A stretch of 64,000 nucleotides of DNA from a virus. Shown here in pieces: positions 13,773-48,051 of this stretch. Position numbers and translations under genes: made by a program. Position 1 is the stretch's first letter. Every line of letters starts with the position of its first letter. The notes under the pieces were generated by a model, which saw nothing but the letters and a program-made list of their open reading frames with translations, did no database searches and had not been told where the DNA came from. The stretch spans positions 1 through 64,000 of IMG/VR virus record IMGVR_UViG_3300045242_000006. One strand, 5' to 3'.

Positions 13773-13789
13773 CCCTCAGATTCCGCATA

Positions 13790-14073
13790 TCCTAAATCAG
13801 TTTCGTATTGTCGAGATAAACCTATCCCAAGGCTCGCCATACGAATTTAATCGCCTAAGACGTGCCTTGGGGTCTATCTCATATGCTATCCTAAATTCAG
13901 ATCGCAAGCCGACGTCATGGGACGTTATAGATTGAGAGCCTTCCTTCTATACGAAGTCATCGCTGCACTGTTCTCTCATTCAACCTCAGCTACCCCAACA
14001 GCTTACTCTTCATAGGGCGTGTATCCGCAGGACGGTGAGTGAAGCCCTTCGGCTGACATGTCTCTCTGCGACG
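13790..14073 (-). ncRNA. Structured RNA, copy A (unknown family)
   Basis: No ORF. A leftward promoter at 14080-14107 predicts a transcript start near 14073, and conserved sequence (GAGAGACATGTC, 14066-14055) begins 7 bases later. Pairing on the RNA: AGATA/TATCT and an 8-bp GCC-rich stem at 13826-13833/13864-13871, enclosing ACGTCTTAGGC and GTATGGCG; ACGTC-CCAT-GACGT (13925-13912); AGCC-GAAG-GGCT (14054-14043). All have counterparts in copy B at 47710-48016 with changed stem sequence. No U-rich terminator at its 3' end. Confidence 0.7.
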
Positions 14074-14079
14074 TGTGCA

Positions 14080-14107
14080 TTGTTACACGACATCCCCTGC
14101 CTGTCAA
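14080..14107 (-). promoter_or_regulatory. Leftward promoter of structured RNA copy A
   Basis: TTGACA (14107-14102), 16 bases, TAACAA (14085-14080). Its -35 box is 3 bases (CCC) from the -35 box of the rightward promoter at 14111. Confidence 0.65.
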
Positions 14108-14160: not shown

Positions 14161-14805
14161 ATGAGTTTAATAGAAATCAATGGAGTAAGCAAGACGAGGG
14201 TTGAGTGGTGTCAGGAGTACGGTATCGACACAAGCACGGTGTCACAAAGAATGAAACGTCTCGGCTTGACATTAGTAGAGGCAATCACTCACGTCAAGCC
14301 GAAAGCTGAGTCCACCTTAAAGAAAGAAGCGAGAAAGGCAAAGAAGTTGACGGATGAGCCTCTGGCACCAATTCCGGGTTTTAAGAATTATGCTGTCACC
14401 GAGGCAGGTATAGTTTGGAATGTGAAGCTCCGGCGTCCGCTGGTCAGCTCCTTGTCAGATACTACCCCTTATGCAAGAGTAAATCTTAAAGGGGAGGCGC
14501 TATATGTACATAGGCTGGCTTGTATGGCATGGCACGGAGAGCCTGAAGAGGATTTGAACGTGGTCGATCATATAGACATGGATTACCTCAACAACCACAA
14601 AGACAATTTGAGGTGGACAGATATGAAAGGTAACGCCGATAATAGGAAGGACACGGTTTGGACCTTGTATGGAGGAGAGAAAGTCAGACTTCAAGACCTC
14701 CTCATGAGTAAGGGTTTCATGCCGCGTACCACGGAATATCAAAGATATCGGTACAGAATCCACGTCATGGGTTTACCAGCAGATAAGGTTTTGGAGTGGA
14801 TTTAA
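14161..14805 (+). CDS. HNH homing endonuclease with NUMOD4-like module
   Basis: A 214-residue protein starting at the ATG at 14161 (GGAGG upstream). Residues 8-42 look like a helix-turn-helix (TRVEWCQEYGIDTSTVSQRM). Residues 74-100 (PIPGFKNYAVTEAGIVWN) match the NUMOD4 DNA-binding module, and 115-160 form the HNH core (VHRLACMAWHG, VVDHIDMDYLNN, NLRW). Such enzymes cut a specific site and spread by homing; no intron is visible around it, so it is free-standing. It sits at the beginning of the rightward operon, a typical insertion position. Confidence 0.85.
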   Translation: MSLIEINGVSKTRVEWCQEYGIDTSTVSQRMKRLGLTLVEAITHVKPKAESTLKKEARKAKKLTDEPLAPIPGFKNYAVTEAGIVWNVKLRRPLVSSLSDTTPYARVNLKGEALYVHRLACMAWHGEPEEDLNVVDHIDMDYLNNHKDNLRWTDMKGNADNRKDTVWTLYGGEKVRLQDLLMSKGFMPRTTEYQRYRYRIHVMGLPADKVLEWI

Positions 14806-15032: not shown

Positions 15033-15329
15033 ATGAACACTGTAAAAACTGACGCTGTATCCAAGCAAATCGCTGCAATGATCTACGCCAATGGATCTAA
15101 ATTCTTTGGTGTTACCTTCGTGAAGAAGGACGGTACTGAACGTACTCTCAACGGTCATGTCCGTAAAGTGGCTGGTCATGCCGACCGTAACACATCGGCA
15201 CATTTTGAGAAGTACGTCACCATCGTACTGAACACCAAAGACGATCAAGGCCGTGAGCAGTTCCGTAACGTCAACACTGAGACTATCAAATCGTTGTCGA
15301 TTGCTGGTCGTAAAATTACTTTCGCTTAA
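15033..15329 (+). CDS. Unknown conserved-looking small protein (98 aa)
   Basis: ATG at 15033 with CGGAGG upstream. Beta-rich, basic: SKFFGVTFVKKDGTERTLNG, then RKVAGHADRNTS and KYVTIVLNTKD. The pattern (FFGVxFxKKDGxxRxxxG) is common in small phage proteins thought to have an SH3-like fold. Function unknown. Confidence 0.75.
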   Translation: MNTVKTDAVSKQIAAMIYANGSKFFGVTFVKKDGTERTLNGHVRKVAGHADRNTSAHFEKYVTIVLNTKDDQGREQFRNVNTETIKSLSIAGRKITFA

Positions 15330-15342
15330 TAAGGAGAAACAA

Positions 15343-16497
15343 ATGTCTGAACGTTCCCTCGCCCGAGTTGTTACCATTGATGAGCTGATTGCTATTGAAG
15401 GTGCAGACCGCATCGAGTTGGCCATTGTAGGCGGTTGGCAGGTAGTTGTGCAGAAGGGTTTGTATGAGCCTAATAAAACCTTGGCTGTGTATTTCGAAGT
15501 GGATTCTCTGCTGGATACTGAGCGCCCATACTTCAATTCGTTGGCTACTCTGTCGAGCAAACTGCTGCATGTCGTAGACGGCAGAACTCATGCACGTATT
15601 AAAACCATGAAGCTGCGTAAGCAACTGTCTCAAGGGTACTGTATCCCTCTATCCGAGGTTGGTGACATGCCTAAACGGCTGACTGATATTGGGACAGACT
15701 TGACAGAATTCCTTGGTGTTGTCAAGTATGAGAAGGCTGAAGAAAAGTCCATGAATAACAATGGAGGCGCTGGCGTCAAGAATGGCACTTCGGCTTTGGG
15801 CTTCCCTAAGTTTGTCCCTAAGACTGATCAAACTCGCGTGCAGAATATCTCTGCATTGTACTTGAAGGCTGTAGAACAAGGAGAAGAGTTTGAGGAATCT
15901 TTTAAGCTGGACGGAAGCTCTCTTACTGCGTTTGTTCGTGACGGCGTGGCTGGTGTCGCTAGCCGTAACGTCGGGTTCCGGGTGGCTGATGAAAAGCTTG
16001 GGCTGTTTACTACTCTTAAGCGTTTCCTTGGGCATTGTCGTACTCGCGGTATCCGCAATGCAAAATGGGTGAGTGTAATCCCTAAAGACGACAACACATT
16101 CACTCAGATGGCTGCTGAAGCTGGTTTGATCGAAGCAATTCGTCGTGATGGACGTAACCTTGCCATTCAAGGTGAGATGTGCGGCCCTTCGATTCAGAAT
16201 AACTTCGAAGGTTTGGACAAGAACACGTTCTTCTGCTACGATGTTTACCTGATTGATGAGCAACGTTACATGCTGCCTGCTGAACGACTTGAATTCTGCA
16301 CTGATCAAGGTGTTAAGCATGTACCTGTGAATTTCACTGGCCCTCTTCAAGCTAAGACAGTAGCTGAGGCTCTGAAGCGTGCGGATGGTCCAAGTGGTTT
16401 GAAGGGTAAATTTAGGGAAGGGTTCGTACTTAAATCAACCACTCGGGATTTCTCGTTCAAAGTGATTAGTAATGCTTACCTGCTGAAGGAGGAGTGA
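15343..16497 (+). CDS. RNA ligase, DRB0094/Rnl2-like
   Basis: A 384-residue nucleotidyltransferase. The N-terminal 110 residues resemble the extra domain of DRB0094-type RNA ligases (VVTIDELIAIEGADRIELA). The ligase core follows: motif I FKLDGSS near residue 187 with the adenylated Lys, motif III near LAIQGEMCGPS (282), motif IV REGFVLKS near 362 and motif V SFKVISNAYL near 372. It seals RNA ends, probably to repair tRNAs cut by host defences. Ribosome site AAGGAG. A second, Rnl1-type ligase lies at 54804-55706. Confidence 0.85.
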   Translation: MSERSLARVVTIDELIAIEGADRIELAIVGGWQVVVQKGLYEPNKTLAVYFEVDSLLDTERPYFNSLATLSSKLLHVVDGRTHARIKTMKLRKQLSQGYCIPLSEVGDMPKRLTDIGTDLTEFLGVVKYEKAEEKSMNNNGGAGVKNGTSALGFPKFVPKTDQTRVQNISALYLKAVEQGEEFEESFKLDGSSLTAFVRDGVAGVASRNVGFRVADEKLGLFTTLKRFLGHCRTRGIRNAKWVSVIPKDDNTFTQMAAEAGLIEAIRRDGRNLAIQGEMCGPSIQNNFEGLDKNTFFCYDVYLIDEQRYMLPAERLEFCTDQGVKHVPVNFTGPLQAKTVAEALKRADGPSGLKGKFREGFVLKSTTRDFSFKVISNAYLLKEE

Positions 16498-42858: not shown

Positions 42859-42933
42859 TGGAGCGGATAGGGAATTTCGAAATCCCGACGAACAGCTTGG
42901 AAGGCTGACACTCTGCCTCTGAGTTATACCCGC
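42859..42933 (-). tRNA. tRNA-Gly (UCC)
   Basis: Acceptor GCGGGTA/TATCCGC with encoded CCA; anticodon loop CTTCCAA; T loop TTCGAAA. Five bases from the aberrant tRNA next to it. Confidence 0.85.
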
Positions 42934-42940
42934 TTTAATT

Positions 42941-43030
42941 TGGTGCCCCTAGTGAGATTCGAACTCACAACACCTTCCGGCGTGCTGGCTTCTAAGACCA
43001 GTGCGTACTGCCAATACCGCCACAGGGGCA
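42941..43030 (-). tRNA. tRNA-Leu (UAG)
   Basis: Acceptor TGCCCCT/AGGGGCA, encoded CCA, loop CTTAGAA and a long variable arm typical of class II tRNA-Leu. Confidence 0.9.
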
Positions 43031-43039
43031 AAACTTTTT

Positions 43040-43112
43040 TGGTGTGAGGCTGGGTACTGACCCCAATCCTTCGTTTCACAGACGAAGTTCCTAACCATCG
43101 AACTACCTCACC
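43040..43112 (-). tRNA. tRNA-His (GUG)
   Basis: Acceptor GTGAGGT/GCCTCAC preceded by an extra G (43112), the -1 G of tRNA-His; loop CTGTGAA; CCA encoded. Confidence 0.85.
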
Positions 43113-43121
43113 ATTGTTTCT

Positions 43122-43271
43122 TTAAATCCATTCTTCTTCAGAGTGAATTTCTTCAAGTGCTTCTTTGAGGGTCTGTTTATCTAGACTCCTCTCTTTAAAG
43201 TAAACCCTTTCACAACAACCACAAGGCATCACAGCAAACTTCTTCTTGGTTTGTTTTACTCGGACTTTCAT
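43122..43271 (-). CDS. Small Cys-rich protein in the tRNA cluster (49 aa)
   Basis: ATG at 43271 with TAGGAG upstream. Sequence starts MKVRVKQTKKKFAVMPCGCC and ends in acidic residues (EALEEIHSEEEWI). The CGCC cluster could bind zinc. It fills the space between tRNA-His and tRNA-Ala. Function unknown. Confidence 0.65.
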   Translation of the reverse strand: MKVRVKQTKKKFAVMPCGCCERVYFKERSLDKQTLKEALEEIHSEEEWI

Positions 43272-43289
43272 TTCTACACTCCTATAATT

Positions 43290-43363
43290 TGGTGGACCGT
43301 CAGGGAGTCAAACCCTGCCTTTCGCCGTGCAAGGGCGACGAACTATCGAAATTCTTACAGCCC
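43290..43363 (-). tRNA. tRNA-Ala (UGC)
   Basis: Acceptor GGGCTGT/ACGGTCC, D stem GAAT/GTTC with a short loop, anticodon stem TCGCC/GGCGA with loop CTTGCAC, T loop TTTGACT, encoded CCA. Confidence 0.85.
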
Positions 43364-43472
43364 ATTATCGCGTCTACTGCCAGATGTTCCACTCCTACGC
43401 CGTAAGTGGTCGTGCTTGTGGCTGGAACGATAAGCTTGGGTATAAGCCCATATGCCACCTTTACAGTAAAAT

Positions 43473-43546
43473 TGGTCACTCGGGGTGGAGTCGAACCACC
43501 GCCACTTCGTTCCAAACAAAGTACGCTACCGTAACGCTTCCGAGAG
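43473..43546 (-). tRNA. tRNA-Pro (UGG)
   Basis: Acceptor CTCTCGG/CCGAGTG with one mismatch, loop TTTGGAA, T loop TTCGACT, CCA encoded. About 110 bases before it (43364-43472) hold no gene I can support. Confidence 0.8.
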
Positions 43547-43568
43547 ATAAATCATTTACATCTTAAAT

Positions 43569-43657
43569 TGGTCCCGCTTGGTCGGAATCGAACCACGCAG
43601 CCAGAGGCAAGGCGTTTACAGCGCCCCGTAGCATCCCAGTGCTACTAGTCAATCGGG
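43569..43657 (-). tRNA. tRNA-Tyr (GUA)
   Basis: Acceptor CCCGATT/AAGCGGG, loop CTGTAAA, long variable arm (class II), CCA encoded. Confidence 0.85.
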
Positions 43658-43663
43658 TTTGTT

Positions 43664-43740
43664 TGGCAGGCAATAGAGGATTCGAACCTCCCATCTTGTG
43701 ATTAACAGTCACAGACCAACACCTAGTCAGATCATTGCCT
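43664..43740 (-). tRNA. tRNA-Asn (GUU)
   Basis: Acceptor AGGCAAT/ATTGCCT, anticodon stem TGTGA/TCACA with loop CTGTTAA, CCA encoded. Confidence 0.9.
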
Positions 43741-43748
43741 ATAATTCT

Positions 43749-43789
43749 GATAGAGATTATATTTATACAGCACACTCTATCTGGCTGTA
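43749..43789 (-). other. Possible H-type RNA pseudoknot in a tRNA spacer
   Basis: On the transcribed minus strand TACAGC (43789-43784) pairs with GCTGTA (43771-43766), and GATAGAG (43781-43775) pairs with CTCTATC (43755-43749). The stems interlock. Loops of 2, 3 and 10 bases, the last A/U-rich, suit a classical pseudoknot. Only the pairing is observed. Confidence 0.45.
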
Positions 43790-43808
43790 CACGTGGGGAG
43801 CACATGTT

Positions 43809-43888
43809 TGGTAGGCCGAGTTGTTGGATTCGAACCAACGTCACCACATCTTACGTGCGGTATCCTGAGCCTCTAGACGAAACTCGAC
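43809..43888 (-). tRNA. Aberrant Glu-like tRNA with UAA-like anticodon
   Basis: The D arm (TCGTCTAGAGGCTCAGG) is Glu-like, acceptor TCGAGTT/AACTCGG and T arm GTTGG/CCAAC are good, but the anticodon loop is CGTAAGA: G at position 33 and UAA at 34-36. The 3' end reads CTA before a displaced CCA. A genuine tRNA-Glu is present nearby, so this is probably decayed or repurposed. Confidence 0.5.
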
Positions 43889-43893
43889 ATGTT

Positions 43894-43975
43894 TGGTAGC
43901 GAGTCCGTGAATCGAACACGTAAGCACTGGGATATGAACCCAGAGACAACACCAGTCAGTCTTAGCCGACTCGCC
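43894..43975 (-). tRNA. tRNA with CAU anticodon (Met or Ile2)
   Basis: Acceptor GGCGAGT/ACTCGCT, anticodon stem CTGGG/CCCAG with loop TTCATAT, T loop TTCGATT, CCA encoded. The D region is about five bases longer than usual. Sequence alone does not separate elongator Met from lysidine-modified Ile. Confidence 0.75.
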
Positions 43976-43982
43976 ATTTATT

Positions 43983-44056
43983 TGGTTGCTCGTAAGTGAA
44001 TTGAACACCTCTCACTCGGTTATCAGCCGAACGCATTACCACTATGCTAACGAGCA
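43983..44056 (-). tRNA. tRNA-Ile (GAU)
   Basis: Acceptor TGCTCGT/ACGAGCA, loop CTGATAA, T loop TTCAATT, CCA encoded. Confidence 0.85.
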
Positions 44057-44192
44057 ATTTGTTTGTATCCCTGCTGGCTCTCAACTGCTTTATCTTGAGC
44101 CATTACCATCCGATCAAAGATGTATCACCTTCGTTTCCCGCAACCTTTTAAAAGCAGTAAAAGGAAGCTTCGTATCCGGCTCACAGGCGATT
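44057..44192 (-). other. tRNA-cluster spacer with two hairpins
   Basis: No gene or intact tRNA. TGGCTC/GAGCCA (about 44079-44105) and CCTTTT/AAAAGG (about 44142-44163) can pair. It may be a tRNA remnant. Confidence 0.3.
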
Positions 44193-44267
44193 TGGTAGTC
44201 ACTAGTGGGATCGAACCACTCTAAAAGGCTTCGTAGACCTTTGCCTAATCCAATCGGCCAAGCGACT
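44193..44267 (-). tRNA. tRNA-Arg (ACG)
   Basis: Acceptor AGTCGCT/AGTGACT, loop CTACGAA, CCA encoded. The A34 would need inosine editing by the host. Confidence 0.85.
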
Positions 44268-44273
44268 ATTATT

Positions 44274-44347
44274 TGGTGCCCCATCACAGAATCGAACTGC
44301 GTTCTCAGCGTTACAAAGGCCGAGTAATACCAATATACTAAAAGGGC
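44274..44347 (-). tRNA. tRNA-Thr (UGU)
   Basis: Acceptor GCCCTTT/ATGGGGC with one mismatch; anticodon loop TTTGTAA under a C-C mismatch at 31-39; T loop TTCGATT; CCA encoded. Confidence 0.75.
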
Positions 44348-44414
44348 GGAATTCTTAGGAGCTATAACGTGCCCGAGACGTACAGTATTTAGGGGCTACT
44401 GTAAAGGCCAGCTT

Positions 44415-44489
44415 TGGCGGTCCTACGGAGAATCGAACTCCGTTCCCTCGCTAGACAGGCGAGTATAATAACCGTTATACGATAAGACC
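44415..44489 (-). tRNA. tRNA-Asp (GUC)
   Basis: Acceptor GGTCTTA/TAGGACC, anticodon stem CTCGC/GCGAG with loop CTGTCTA, CCA encoded. Confidence 0.9.
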
Positions 44490-44493
44490 AAAT

Positions 44494-44569
44494 TGGAGCA
44501 GTTGACCGGATTCGAACCGGCGTCTTCTTGGTTGAAAGCCAAGCATCCTATCCGCTAGACGACAACTGC
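44494..44569 (-). tRNA. tRNA-Glu (UUC)
   Basis: Acceptor GCAGTTG/CAACTGC, loop CTTTCAA, T loop TTCGAAT, CCA encoded. Its 5' end overlaps the last codons of the HNH gene at 44548-44976. Confidence 0.9.
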
Positions 44570-44976
44570 AAAATTCCTGCATGTACCTTCCGATGGCAAT
44601 TAGAGCAAAGGATGACACATTTTCTAATCTCTGCCTTTAACGTGTTTGTTGAGTACGTTAATAGGTTACTTGGGTTTGCATCTTTGCCAGATGGATCAGT
44701 GTGATGAAGGTCCAAAGCTACTGGCTCTTTCTCACAGCAAACCAAACATCCGAAAAATGACTTGAACCGTCTCATTAAGTTTCTGTTGTACTCTCTTGTC
44801 TCGGCATTTCTTGCTTTGATAGAGCTTCTACGATTCTCGTTTGTGACGTAACCACTATTATTCTGTGCTTTCTGACAATCACGACACCTTGTCTGTAGTC
44901 CATCAGGCTTAACCTTATTCTTATTGAACTCAGACCGAGGCTTTAACTCATCACAGACTTTGCAGTGTTTTGTCAT
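44548..44976 (-). CDS. HNH endonuclease, possibly homing, inserted in the tRNA cluster
   Basis: A 142-residue protein. The N-terminus has a zinc knuckle pair (KVCDELKPR with CKVC, and CRDCQK), the middle is basic (RRSSIKARNAETREYNRN), and the C-terminus has the HNH core: CLVCCEKEPVALDLHH near residue 77 and CSNCHRKVHAG near 125. The stop lies inside tRNA-Glu, so the last 22 bases are shared. Start overlaps the upstream small gene (ATGA). Confidence 0.8.
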   Translation of the reverse strand: MTKHCKVCDELKPRSEFNKNKVKPDGLQTRCRDCQKAQNNSGYVTNENRRSSIKARNAETREYNRNLMRRFKSFFGCLVCCEKEPVALDLHHTDPSGKDANPSNLLTYSTNTLKAEIRKCVILCSNCHRKVHAGILQLSSSG

Positions 44977-45098
44977 TTGCCGCTGACAGGGTGTTTGTCT
45001 TTGCGGGCTTTGTTCGGATGACGACCTTTGCTATCTTTCAAGCGAGTCTTATCAACCGGAGTGTGTTCTTTTGTTGCATCGTATGGACGTTGTGCCAT
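44973..45098 (-). CDS. Small basic protein (41 aa)
   Basis: ATG at 45098 with AAGGAG upstream; stop overlaps the HNH start. Sequence MAQRPYDATKEHTPVDKTRL, then RHPNKARKDKHPVSGK. Shares RKDKH with the 39-residue protein at 10514-10633; perhaps distant relatives. Likely nucleic-acid binding. Confidence 0.6.
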   Translation of the reverse strand: MAQRPYDATKEHTPVDKTRLKDSKGRHPNKARKDKHPVSGK

Positions 45099-45131
45099 TT
45101 CGTTTCTCCTTAATGTCTAGTTCATATGAGT

Positions 45132-45160
45132 ATTTAAACACGACAATTGTACATTGTCAA
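45132..45160 (-). promoter_or_regulatory. Promoter inside the tRNA cluster, with palindrome over the -35
   Basis: TTGACA (45160-45155), 17 bases, TTAAAT (45137-45132). GACAAT-N5-ATTGTC (45158-45142) overlaps the -35 box. Drives the basic protein, HNH and downstream tRNAs. Confidence 0.6.
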
Positions 45161-45190
45161 GCGTTTATTTAAAATTATTTGCACTATCTT

Positions 45191-45265
45191 TGGTAGACCT
45201 GCTTGGGATCAAACCAAGACTAACTCTTTAGAAGAGAGTTGTGCGATTCACTACACTACAAGTCC
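45191..45265 (-). tRNA. tRNA-Arg (UCU)
   Basis: Acceptor GGACTTG/CAGGTCT, anticodon stem ACTCT/AGAGT with loop CTTCTAA, CCA encoded. Confidence 0.85.
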
Positions 45266-45271
45266 AATGTT

Positions 45272-45344
45272 TGGCGGGCACCCTTCGATTCGAACGAAGC
45301 TGGAAGTGATTTGGAGTCACGACTGGTCGCCAAGACCGACACCC
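45272..45344 (-). tRNA. tRNA-Trp (CCA)
   Basis: Acceptor GGGTGTC/GGTGCCC (three wobble pairs), anticodon loop CTCCAAA on stem GTGA/TCAC, T loop TTCGAAT, CCA encoded. Confidence 0.8.
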
Positions 45345-45354
45345 CTTAATACGG

Positions 45355-45481
45355 TTGCAAGTGAGGAAGGATTTGAACCTTCTCATTGTGAGGCGCATGC
45401 TTCCTCAGTGACGAAATCAAACAGAAATCCTTACCTCTATTCCGGGTTACGCTCCCGCTCTACTCCCATAGTCACTTGCAA
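45355..45481 (-). ncRNA. 127-base tRNA-like RNA
   Basis: The ends pair perfectly over ten bases (TTGCAAGTGA/TCACTTGCAA). A good T arm (GAAGG-TTCAAAT-CCTTC) and a hairpin CGGG-AGCGTAA-CCCG resembling an anticodon arm are present, but about 58 bases with a further hairpin (TGAGG/CCTCA) lie between them. Position 33 would be G. No proper CCA at the 3' end. A tRNA with a large variable-region insertion, or a tRNA-derived RNA. Confidence 0.5.
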
Positions 45482-45581
45482 ATTCGAAGGAGACATTTAT
45501 AACACGCAGTCTCCAGTGCGTCAATCAGAGAGTTGGTTTCTCTGTCACATCCCAAGGCGCTTGAAGCTTCAGGTTGTTCTG

Positions 45582-46136
45582 TTAGTAACCGTATCCATCG
45601 AATGGATTAGCGGTTACAGCTAAAGGTGCAAAGCCCATGCTCTGGAATTTATCAGTTGTAATCTTCCAGCCGAGACGCACCCTCAAATCTTTCGTATCAG
45701 ACCAAGGCTTAACAAGGTAGTACTCAAATCCTACAAGCTTGTCTCCATCTTTGAGCTTGGAGAGCATATACCCCGGCACTTTAACCTTATCAGAGATATC
45801 AGGGTTTCCTGTCGTCTCAATTGTAAACGACTCTGACCAAGATAGTCCAGTCATTTTTGAATATCCGTACAAGGGATTCCTGAACATCCAGAATACTCTA
45901 TTTACGTAACCTTTGATGCCAGTCGTTTCATTTACGAACGGTGCACGCGTAGTGACATATCCTTCATCACCTTGTGGTGGGTTGTCATAGGTTCCCCAGA
46001 TCCAGCCCCACGTGTACTCAGACTTATCATGGTCTTGCTCTCTTGTAAAGGCAGCAATGACTGGTGCTGTAAATGGTACAGTAAGTGTTAGGATAATGTC
46101 CAGTACAGAAAGTACAAACCACTTCAGATAAATCAT
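45582..46136 (-). CDS. Membrane-anchored protein of unknown function (184 aa)
   Basis: ATG at 46136 (GAGG upstream) excludes a longer frame that would cover tRNA-Gln. An N-terminal membrane helix (FVLSVLDIILTLTVPFTAPV) is followed by a soluble domain with TYDNPPQGDEGY, FWMFRNPLYGYSKMTG and WSESFTIETTG. I recall this pattern from phage proteins of unknown function. It lies inside the tRNA cluster. Confidence 0.75.
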   Translation of the reverse strand: MIYLKWFVLSVLDIILTLTVPFTAPVIAAFTREQDHDKSEYTWGWIWGTYDNPPQGDEGYVTTRAPFVNETTGIKGYVNRVFWMFRNPLYGYSKMTGLSWSESFTIETTGNPDISDKVKVPGYMLSKLKDGDKLVGFEYYLVKPWSDTKDLRVRLGWKITTDKFQSMGFAPLAVTANPFDGYGY

Positions 46137-46151
46137 AAATACCTCTTTGTT

Positions 46152-46226
46152 TGGCAGCGGGTGAAAGGATCGAACTTTCGTAACTGGATTCAAAGTCCAG
46201 CGCCTGTGCCACTCGGCCAACCCGCA
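46152..46226 (-). tRNA. tRNA-Gln (UUG)
   Basis: Acceptor TGCGGGT/ACCCGCT with an unpaired first position as in Gln tRNAs, anticodon stem CTGGA/TCCAG with loop CTTTGAA, CCA encoded. Confidence 0.85.
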
Positions 46227-46232
46227 ATTAAT

Positions 46233-46306
46233 TGGTGCTCAATGAAGGAATTGAACCTCCGTCTGCTGCGTGTAAAGCAGCGGCCCTACCATTAGACGAA
46301 TCGAGC
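46233..46306 (-). tRNA. tRNA-Val (UAC)
   Basis: Acceptor GCTCGAT/ATTGAGC, anticodon stem GCTGC/GCAGC with loop TTTACAC, CCA encoded. Confidence 0.9.
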
Positions 46307-46312
46307 TTTGTA

Positions 46313-46389
46313 TGGTTGGCCCTCTGAGATTCGAACTCAGAACATTCTCCTTTTGAGAGAGACGCGACTACCAATTGCGCCAAGGGCCA
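46313..46389 (-). tRNA. Class I tRNA with CAA anticodon (Leu codon UUG)
   Basis: A perfect short-variable-loop cloverleaf: acceptor TGGCCCT/AGGGCCA, D stem GCG/CGC, anticodon stem TCTCT/GGAGA with loop CTCAAAA, T stem CTGAG/CTCAG, CCA encoded. Normal Leu(CAA) tRNAs have a long variable arm; this body looks more like Trp or Lys types, so its charging is uncertain. Confidence 0.75.
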
Positions 46390-46409
46390 TCTGTTTGGTG
46401 TTTCTAATT

Positions 46410-46535
46410 TGGTACGACAAGTAGGAATCGAACCTACTATACATCAGCCGCTAAGCTGATCTTAATGAGCAAAAGACCTATACCACGCCTATAGGAAGTT
46501 TCGAACCCTCCACAACTTGTGTCTCATCTTGCCGT
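46410..46535 (-). ncRNA. 126-base tRNA-like RNA
   Basis: Acceptor ACGGCAA/TTGTCGT (seven pairs), encoded CCA and a good T arm (GTAGG-TTCGATT-CCTAC). Between them lie CCTATA-GGCGTGG-TATAGG, ATCAGC/GCTGAT and a GGTTCGAAAC segment, about 50 bases more than a tRNA holds. Anticodon undetermined. Same overall size as the RNA at 45355-45481. Confidence 0.5.
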
Positions 46536-46541
46536 ATTGTT

Positions 46542-46635
46542 TGGCGGGTAGCAGAGGAGTCGAACCCCATCCGGCTCTCGCCAGAACCTAGTTTTCAAGA
46601 CTAGTCGCAGGACCAACCCCGCTGCATTACTACCC
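46542..46635 (-). tRNA. tRNA-Ser (UGA)
   Basis: Acceptor GGGTAGT/GCTACCC, anticodon stem CTAGT/ACTAG with loop CTTGAAA, long variable arm, CCA encoded. Confidence 0.85.
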
Positions 46636-46759
46636 ATAAATTTTAGAGGTTCAACTTGGGACTTGTACCCCTGCCGGACTAATGCGTCATTCCGAGTGCG
46701 ACCAGACCGCGAACCCTCACGTCTGTGCAGTTTTCTTATGGGTTGCGACCCCATCATCT

Positions 46760-46847
46760 TGGCAGTAGATACAGGATTCGAACCTGTGGGACTTTTACAT
46801 CCTATGGTTTAGCAAACCACTGCAATCGGCCTCTCTGCCAATCTACT
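46760..46847 (-). tRNA. tRNA-Ser (GCU)
   Basis: Acceptor AGTAGAT/ATCTACT, loop TTGCTAA, long variable arm, CCA encoded. Confidence 0.9.
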
Positions 46848-46852
46848 ATATT

Positions 46853-46927
46853 TGGTTGGACGACTGGGAATCGAACCCAGCATGTTCGGATTAAAAGTCC
46901 GATGCCTGACCGCTTAGCTTCCGTCCA
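46853..46927 (-). tRNA. tRNA-Lys (UUU)
   Basis: Acceptor TGGACGG/TCGTCCA, anticodon stem TCGGA/TCCGA with loop CTTTTAA, CCA encoded. First tRNA of the operon. Confidence 0.9.
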
Positions 46928-47611: not shown

Positions 47612-47709
47612 TATTAGGGTTTCCTTGTATTGGTTATTTATTCATACAATCTCCTTATATTCATTAGGTTAGGTGGTTGTATGTGTTGGTTAGTGTACTT
47701 GATCTGCTC

Positions 47710-48016
47710 ATGACGCTGAGTTTCGTATTGGAAGATAGAATTACCCTAAGAAACGCCATACAGAAAAATCTGCCTAAGACGTAACTAAGGTTCTATCTTC
47801 CACACATCTCATGACGCTTGAGATCGTGATTGGCCTGCATGGGCAGGAGTCGATTGCTCGACAGATTCTGATCATTCCACCTTTCGGCGTCACCGCTACG
47901 CTTTAACCAGATTAGAACTCAGCTTGCCCAGTAGCACTCTCTTCATAGGCGTCCATCCCGAGGGACTTCCTGATGGCCGGTGAGTGGTGCTTTCGCAGAC
48001 ATATCTCTCCATCAGT
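47710..48016 (-). ncRNA. Structured RNA, copy B (unknown family)
   Basis: Non-coding, with its own leftward promoter (48023-48051). Homologous to copy A: identical blocks GTATGGCG (47761-47754) and ACGTCTTAGGC (47782-47772) at the same spacing, CCTATGAAGAG (47949-47939), CACTCACCG and GAGAGATATGTC. Stems: AAGATAGAA/TTCTATCTT (nine pairs), CAGA/TCTG, CCTGC-CCAT-GCAGG (47847-47834), TGC-GAAA-GCA. Stem sequences differ from copy A but still pair. Confidence 0.7.
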
Positions 48017-48022
48017 TTTTCC

Positions 48023-48051
48023 ATACTATCATGACAAATCTACCAAGTCAA
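48023..48051 (-). promoter_or_regulatory. Leftward promoter of structured RNA copy B
   Basis: TTGACT (48051-48046), 17 bases, TAGTAT (48028-48023). Four bases (CCCC) from the -35 of the rightward promoter at 48056. Confidence 0.65.

Follow-up and report, generated by a model that had tools for sequence, protein, structure and literature searches.

A short region of a virus genome, positions 13,790 to 14,073 of the IMG/VR record IMGVR_UViG_3300045242_000006, raises the question of whether it gives rise to a structured RNA and what such an RNA would do. The window analysed here is the stretch of 64,000 bases that opens this record of 97,286 bases, whose kin among the Pseudomonas myoviruses belong to Otagovirus, Flaumdravirus and Pakpunavirus. 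A preliminary description, made from the sequence alone, had paired the region with a second one at 47,710 to 48,016 and taken the two as diverged copies of a structured, selected non-coding RNA. On comparative evidence both copies (A and B in the following) belong to an RNA family without an entry in Rfam, in which one strand probably switches between two partners. Beyond what had been described, we found the promoter behind which the RNA starts, pseudoknots, an alternative helix, a syntenic arrangement of the two copies and a repeated sequence, X.

Structure of the two copies

Both copies lie on the minus strand, to which all RNA features below refer. Copy A extends over approximately 13786-14074 (covariance model match with E=2.3e-28; alignment A1) and copy B over approximately 47705-48018 (E=9.3e-28), so the region first delimited was right, with the actual RNA being somewhat longer. 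The shared blocks are found where they had been placed, i.e. ACGTCTTAGGC and GTATGGCG at a spacing of 18 bases in both copies, together with CCTATGAAGAG, CACTCACCG and GAGA(C/T)ATGTC.

Covariation was first sought without a preset structure and then counted on alignment A1, which holds 35 homologues and underlies the helix counts given here. Ten helices with a total of 49 pairs were obtained, where 97.4% of the cells are paired and 40 of 49 pairs carry double changes, which bears out the compensatory changes expected in related phages. Sliding the structure by 1-3 columns reduced the pairing to 35-46% and the covariation score from 0.62 to 0.06-0.11, and no shuffle out of 500 reached the observed fold. 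The structure was derived from the same 35 sequences and is therefore favoured over its slid versions; the margin is nonetheless large. Chance similarity is ruled out by the homologues and the slid controls, and protein coding by the covariation together with insertions and deletions that are not multiples of three. The region had been described as free of open reading frames; mechanical reading frames do overlap it, but its non-coding nature is upheld by the covariation and the non-triplet length changes.

The 5' domain P1 (14025-14071 in copy A, 47970-48015 in copy B) covaries in 6 of 7 pairs with 100% of the cells paired, and in copy A holds the boxes GAGANAUGUC and CUCACCG. Its small apical stem, AGCC/GGCT in one copy and TGC/GCA in the other, is present in some homologues only. 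Then follows the core (helices 2-6; 13930-14017 and 47864-47950), which in copy A consists of P2, the loop UAUGAAGAG, P3, P6, a segment J, P4, P5 and segment 166-168. Since P3 and P4 cross one another as well as the adjacent helices P2 and P6, the core forms an interlocked pseudoknot. The hairpin P7 (helix 7), ACGUC-CCAU-GACGU at 13912-13925 and CCUGC-CCAU-GCAGG at 47834-47847, has double changes in 4 of 5 pairs. The 3' hairpin is built from a 5' arm, T1 (13871-13880 and 47790-47799), a tip with the internal loop CUUAGGC/GUAUGGC (helices 9 and 10; 13836-13859 and 47755-47778) and a 3' arm (helix 8; 13813-13822 and 47732-47741). Helix 10 is the stem noted before as CGA/TCG in copy A and CAGA/TCTG in copy B, and it covaries in the homologues.

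Four unpaired boxes are strongly conserved: GAGANAUGUC, CUCACCG, GGAA and CUUAGGC/GUAUGGC. The last of these resembles the 11-nt GAAA-tetraloop receptor (CCUAAG/UAUGG) with one nucleotide extra, and this internal loop could be a tertiary contact site. Minimum-energy folding gave z values of -1.9 and -2.7 and is a weak witness here, as pseudoknots lie outside its model.

One strand with two partners

We searched for segments that are identical within one RNA yet variable between RNAs. A likeness emerged between J (GGUUG at 13981-13985 in copy A, GUUCU at 47914-47918 in copy B) plus segment 166-168 and the 3' arm of the 3' hairpin, both of which are complementary to T1. For T1 of copy A the alternative partners are thus 13813-13822 and the combination of J and 13930-13932. 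Pairing of J/166-168 with T1 is found in 90.9% of the cells, compared with 24-50% when slid, with a score of 0.54 against at most 0.15 for the slid versions; cells with double changes number 49 where 17 are expected by shuffling. Segment 166-168 is paired with T1 in 35/35 homologues. Examples of J/T1 are GGUU/AACC, GUUCU/AGAAC, AGUCU/AGACU and AACUU/AAGUU, and by eye the relation is kept in remote members of the family, i.e. the loci L287 (GAGUC/GACUC), L341 and L515 (both GUCU/AGAC).

The two pairings of T1 are mutually exclusive and both are under covariation. With two partners for one strand and covariation in both helices, this RNA probably switches between two states. Refolding during transcription would be the natural reading, since J is the earliest of these strands to be transcribed and the hairpin arm the latest.

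A variable sequence present twice

A sequence of 7-16 nt, X, stands twice in the RNA approximately 100 nt apart (96-115 nt in the main group), as R1 and R2. In copy A, X is AUUUAGGAUA (R1 at 13887-13896, R2 at 13788-13797), and in copy B it is AGCGUCAUGAG (47808-47818 and 47707-47717); the two are unrelated. The main group comprises 59 non-redundant RNAs, and in every one R1 and R2 share at least 7 identical nt, although X itself takes more than 20 different sequences. This identity is the strongest identity signal in the alignment, at 2.75, the best helix reaching 2.38. X comes after CUC(A) in R1, and after CUC or UCU in R2. The left edge of the identity is fixed while the right edge varies, and single changes are found in both repeats together (AGCGUCAUG / AGUGUCAUG; AACAGCACA / AGCAGCACA). 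Interior mismatches in true repeats are mostly of the type R1=G, R2=A (7 cases).

Among remote members X reaches 16 nt (L328) and 13 nt (L287, phiPMW); L297, L341 and L278 show a weak or interrupted repeat. In a single remote RNA a repeat of 7-8 nt is not significant alone; its weight comes from the fixed position in every member. The two PAK_P4 copies (A, L244, 29052-29358; B, L245, 39169-39483) are strongly diverged apart from a common X, AUCUGCAU. Phage PJNP029 (L229, 4803-5119) carries a third X (AUCUGCAU), duplicated within the R1 loop, and in L002 (8253-8597) an extra R2-like element with a different X, GAAACUC-AUACGAG, is inserted behind R1.

Several partners of X were tried and rejected. 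Perfect complements of at least 8 nt to the X cores, as expected of an antisense seed on phage mRNA, do not exceed chance in the window or in PAK_P4, and complements with 1-2 mismatches in the whole own genome gave nothing consistent. Within its own RNA X has no consistent partner, and the own X pairs no better than a swapped X. Against rRNA (E. coli rrnB) 12 matches were obtained, compared with 12.7 for shuffled X. Outside its own locus, the only complement of R1-X found to be borne by the phage is the template strand of R2.

Promoter and homologues

In 55 of 59 homologues the RNA starts about 10 nt behind a promoter of the TTGAC type (sigma-70-type) that lies immediately upstream, which places P1 at the extreme 5' end. 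By a consensus scan the promoter is TTGACA-17-AACAAT at 14079-14107 in copy A; in copy B it is TTGACT-17-TAGTAT at 48023-48051, the counterpart of which is annotated in PAK_P4 (89135-89162). At the other end, a Shine-Dalgarno sequence and AUG closely follow R2 in many homologues, and the RNA usually extends to the ribosome-binding site. With a promoter directly upstream and a ribosome-binding site usually at the 3' end, the RNA reads as a 5' leader, and we infer that it is transcribed from both loci. Behind copy B (47634-47656, minus strand), the Shine-Dalgarno sequence AAGGAG is followed by the minigene AUG AAU AAA UAA. Such a minigene, with a stop after 1-4 codons, is kept in about a dozen Otagovirus-type B copies, and recalls the bar minigenes of lambda.

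With blastn, approximately 180 GenBank phage records with similar DNA were found for each of the two copies. The distribution was examined with a covariance model that covers the 138 positions at the 5' end, over 31 phage records, a few phages being represented twice. Exactly two copies are present in 26 of the 31 records and one copy in 4 more distant ones; PAK_P3 is the only record among them where the model found no copy. The two copies per genome are syntenic. Remote members confirmed with the same model come from phage contigs and from GenBank phages, among them phiPMW, vB_PpS_SYP and Vibrio phage 1.133.O. Loose pattern scans of public collections returned mostly chance matches and were hence re-scored: profile re-scoring left no convincing member among the matches listed from the genome contigs, so that copies in bacteria or prophages may still exist, and no member was found in the plasmid scan. 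The known range of the family is a lower bound, as the members from collection scans are those among the matches listed.

Copy A is flanked on one side by an RNA-ligase operon that is transcribed away from it (RNA ligase gene at 15253-16497, plus strand; Pfam RNA_ligase) and on the other by early genes toward primase/helicase. An HNH endonuclease gene (14161-14805, plus strand; Pfam HNH_3) adjoins copy A on the ligase side, and no HNH endonuclease is annotated at this position in the relatives inspected. Copy B is situated upstream of a tRNA gene cluster, which in the window comprises 19 tRNA genes with many anticodons (42859-46927, minus strand).

Relation to known RNAs

The family had not been recognised at the outset, and this has not changed. 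Over the window, Rfam 15 (including T-box, group I/II introns, GOLLD, ROOL, OLE, HEARO, RNase P and tmRNA) gave no match at the gathering threshold, and at a relaxed threshold only chance matches of snoRNA type. No description of this RNA was found in the papers searched, and none of the records inspected annotates an RNA at either locus.

Riboswitches and attenuators are alike in being structured 5' leaders behind a promoter, where a conserved domain and a hairpin downstream of it share a switching strand and form mutually exclusive helices. The phage RNA differs in that it matches no known aptamer family, has no terminator that we could find, precedes genes without a common pathway, contains a conserved internal loop in its downstream hairpin, and carries X twice. 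We claim a likeness of layout alone, as neither a terminator nor a common regulated pathway was found. The put-type antiterminator RNAs of phage HK022 are also phage leader RNAs which start more than one early operon; put elements are far smaller, with two hairpins. GOLLD, ROOL and OLE are likewise large and structured RNAs of other size and sequence, and Rfam gave no match to them. Both GOLLD and ROOL are known from phages, the former near tRNAs.

Non-coding RNAs near tRNA genes have been reported in related Pseudomonas phages, namely sRNA1 and sRNA2 of PAK_P3 by RNA-seq (PMC4933390) and sRNA1 of PAK_P4 in its GenBank annotation. These are approximately 80-135 nt long and lie at other positions; identity with them is ruled out by position and by the absence of the family from PAK_P3. 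As for bridge RNA and omega RNA, the PAK_P4 annotation shows no linked recombinase or TnpB/IscB gene.

Discussion

The explanation we favour, tentatively and at slightly less than even odds, is a cis-acting 5' leader that folds and refolds co-transcriptionally. T1 would pair first with the earlier-made J/166-168 and would pass to the hairpin arm once the polymerase has made that arm, just before R2, giving a change of shape at the end of the leader. Such refolding would act in cis on the downstream operon, through translation or through passage of the polymerase; action in cis is suggested by the common position of R2 directly before the ribosome-binding site. X might be read by base pairing, and nascent R1 could conceivably pair with the DNA at R2, pausing or tethering the polymerase. 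This reading of X comes from the lack of any other complement and from the small R1=G/R2=A bias, a type of difference that would be tolerated if R1 formed wobble pairs with the complement of R2. That X in the R1 loop is a self-matching guide which reads X at R2, most simply through nascent RNA and template DNA, coupled to the handover of T1, is a doubtful addition. If true, it would be a transcription-coupled RNA-DNA recognition with a freely variable, self-consistent code, for which we know of no precedent.

A number of observations weigh against this explanation. For the alternative helix, the counts of further pair types and of pairs with double change are not above those of shuffles, and in 20 of 35 homologues its pair 113/267 does not form. 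Constraints from the Shine-Dalgarno sequence or from stems could also give rise to the R1=G/R2=A bias. Near copy A or copy B the minus strand showed no intrinsic terminator, and the PAK_P4 annotation, based on RNA-seq, has no non-coding RNA at either locus. The genes downstream differ between phages, and in the remote members L306, L341 and L287 no start codon follows closely on the same strand, so a role in cis is not universal.

This variety of downstream genes, the distance of some remote members from any such gene and the very strong conservation of the unpaired boxes (GAGANAUGUC, CUCACCG, GGAA, CUUAGGC/GUAUGGC) would suit a stand-alone RNA acting in trans, as scaffold of an RNA-protein particle or as regulator, and made only incidentally at the start of early transcripts. 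We regard it as unlikely, given that R2 adjoins the ribosome-binding site in many phages, that no terminator was found which would free the RNA, and that neither rRNA nor the phage genomes offered a complement of X. A self-processing or splicing RNA, where R1-X and R2-X are equivalent junctions and removal of the hairpin leaves a single X, seems quite improbable: no internal complement of X and no Rfam match to ribozymes or group I or II introns was found, and the removal restores nothing coding. It does draw on a compact, pseudoknotted core, on X flanking one hairpin on both sides at a near-constant spacing (96-115 nt, main group), and on the hairpin arm copying J+166-168, so that T1 as a single guide can recognise both sites.

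R1 and R2 may also be seen as two sites bound by a sequence-specific protein of the phage, with a specificity that drifts from one phage to the next. The flanks of R1 and R2 co-vary too (CGA, CAA, CCGA and AAGA contexts) and PAK_P4 has the same X in copies A and B, but X of the two copies is unrelated in the window phage, single-base changes occur simultaneously in both repeats (AGCGUC/AGUGUC, AACAGCA/AGCAGCA) and no protein was identified, which makes such sites very unlikely. Finally, the identity of R1 and R2 might reflect a copying event, i.e. recombination, slippage or a target-site duplication by a mobile element, instead of a function. The fixed left and variable right edge of the identity (7-16 nt) and the third X in phage PJNP029 point this way. 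The repeat is however kept in 59/59 RNAs over deep divergence with no decayed case, and no homologue was seen without the hairpin between the repeats; an origin of this kind is very unlikely to account for the identity.

Structured RNAs encoded by phages are poorly catalogued, and this leader family occupies fixed loci in well-studied Pseudomonas phages, some of which appear in the therapy literature. As a natural and compact system it would lend itself to the study of co-transcriptional refolding. With its two copies of X it also raises the question of which biochemistry keeps two distant segments identical while both vary freely, to which paired mutants of a laboratory phage could give a direct answer.
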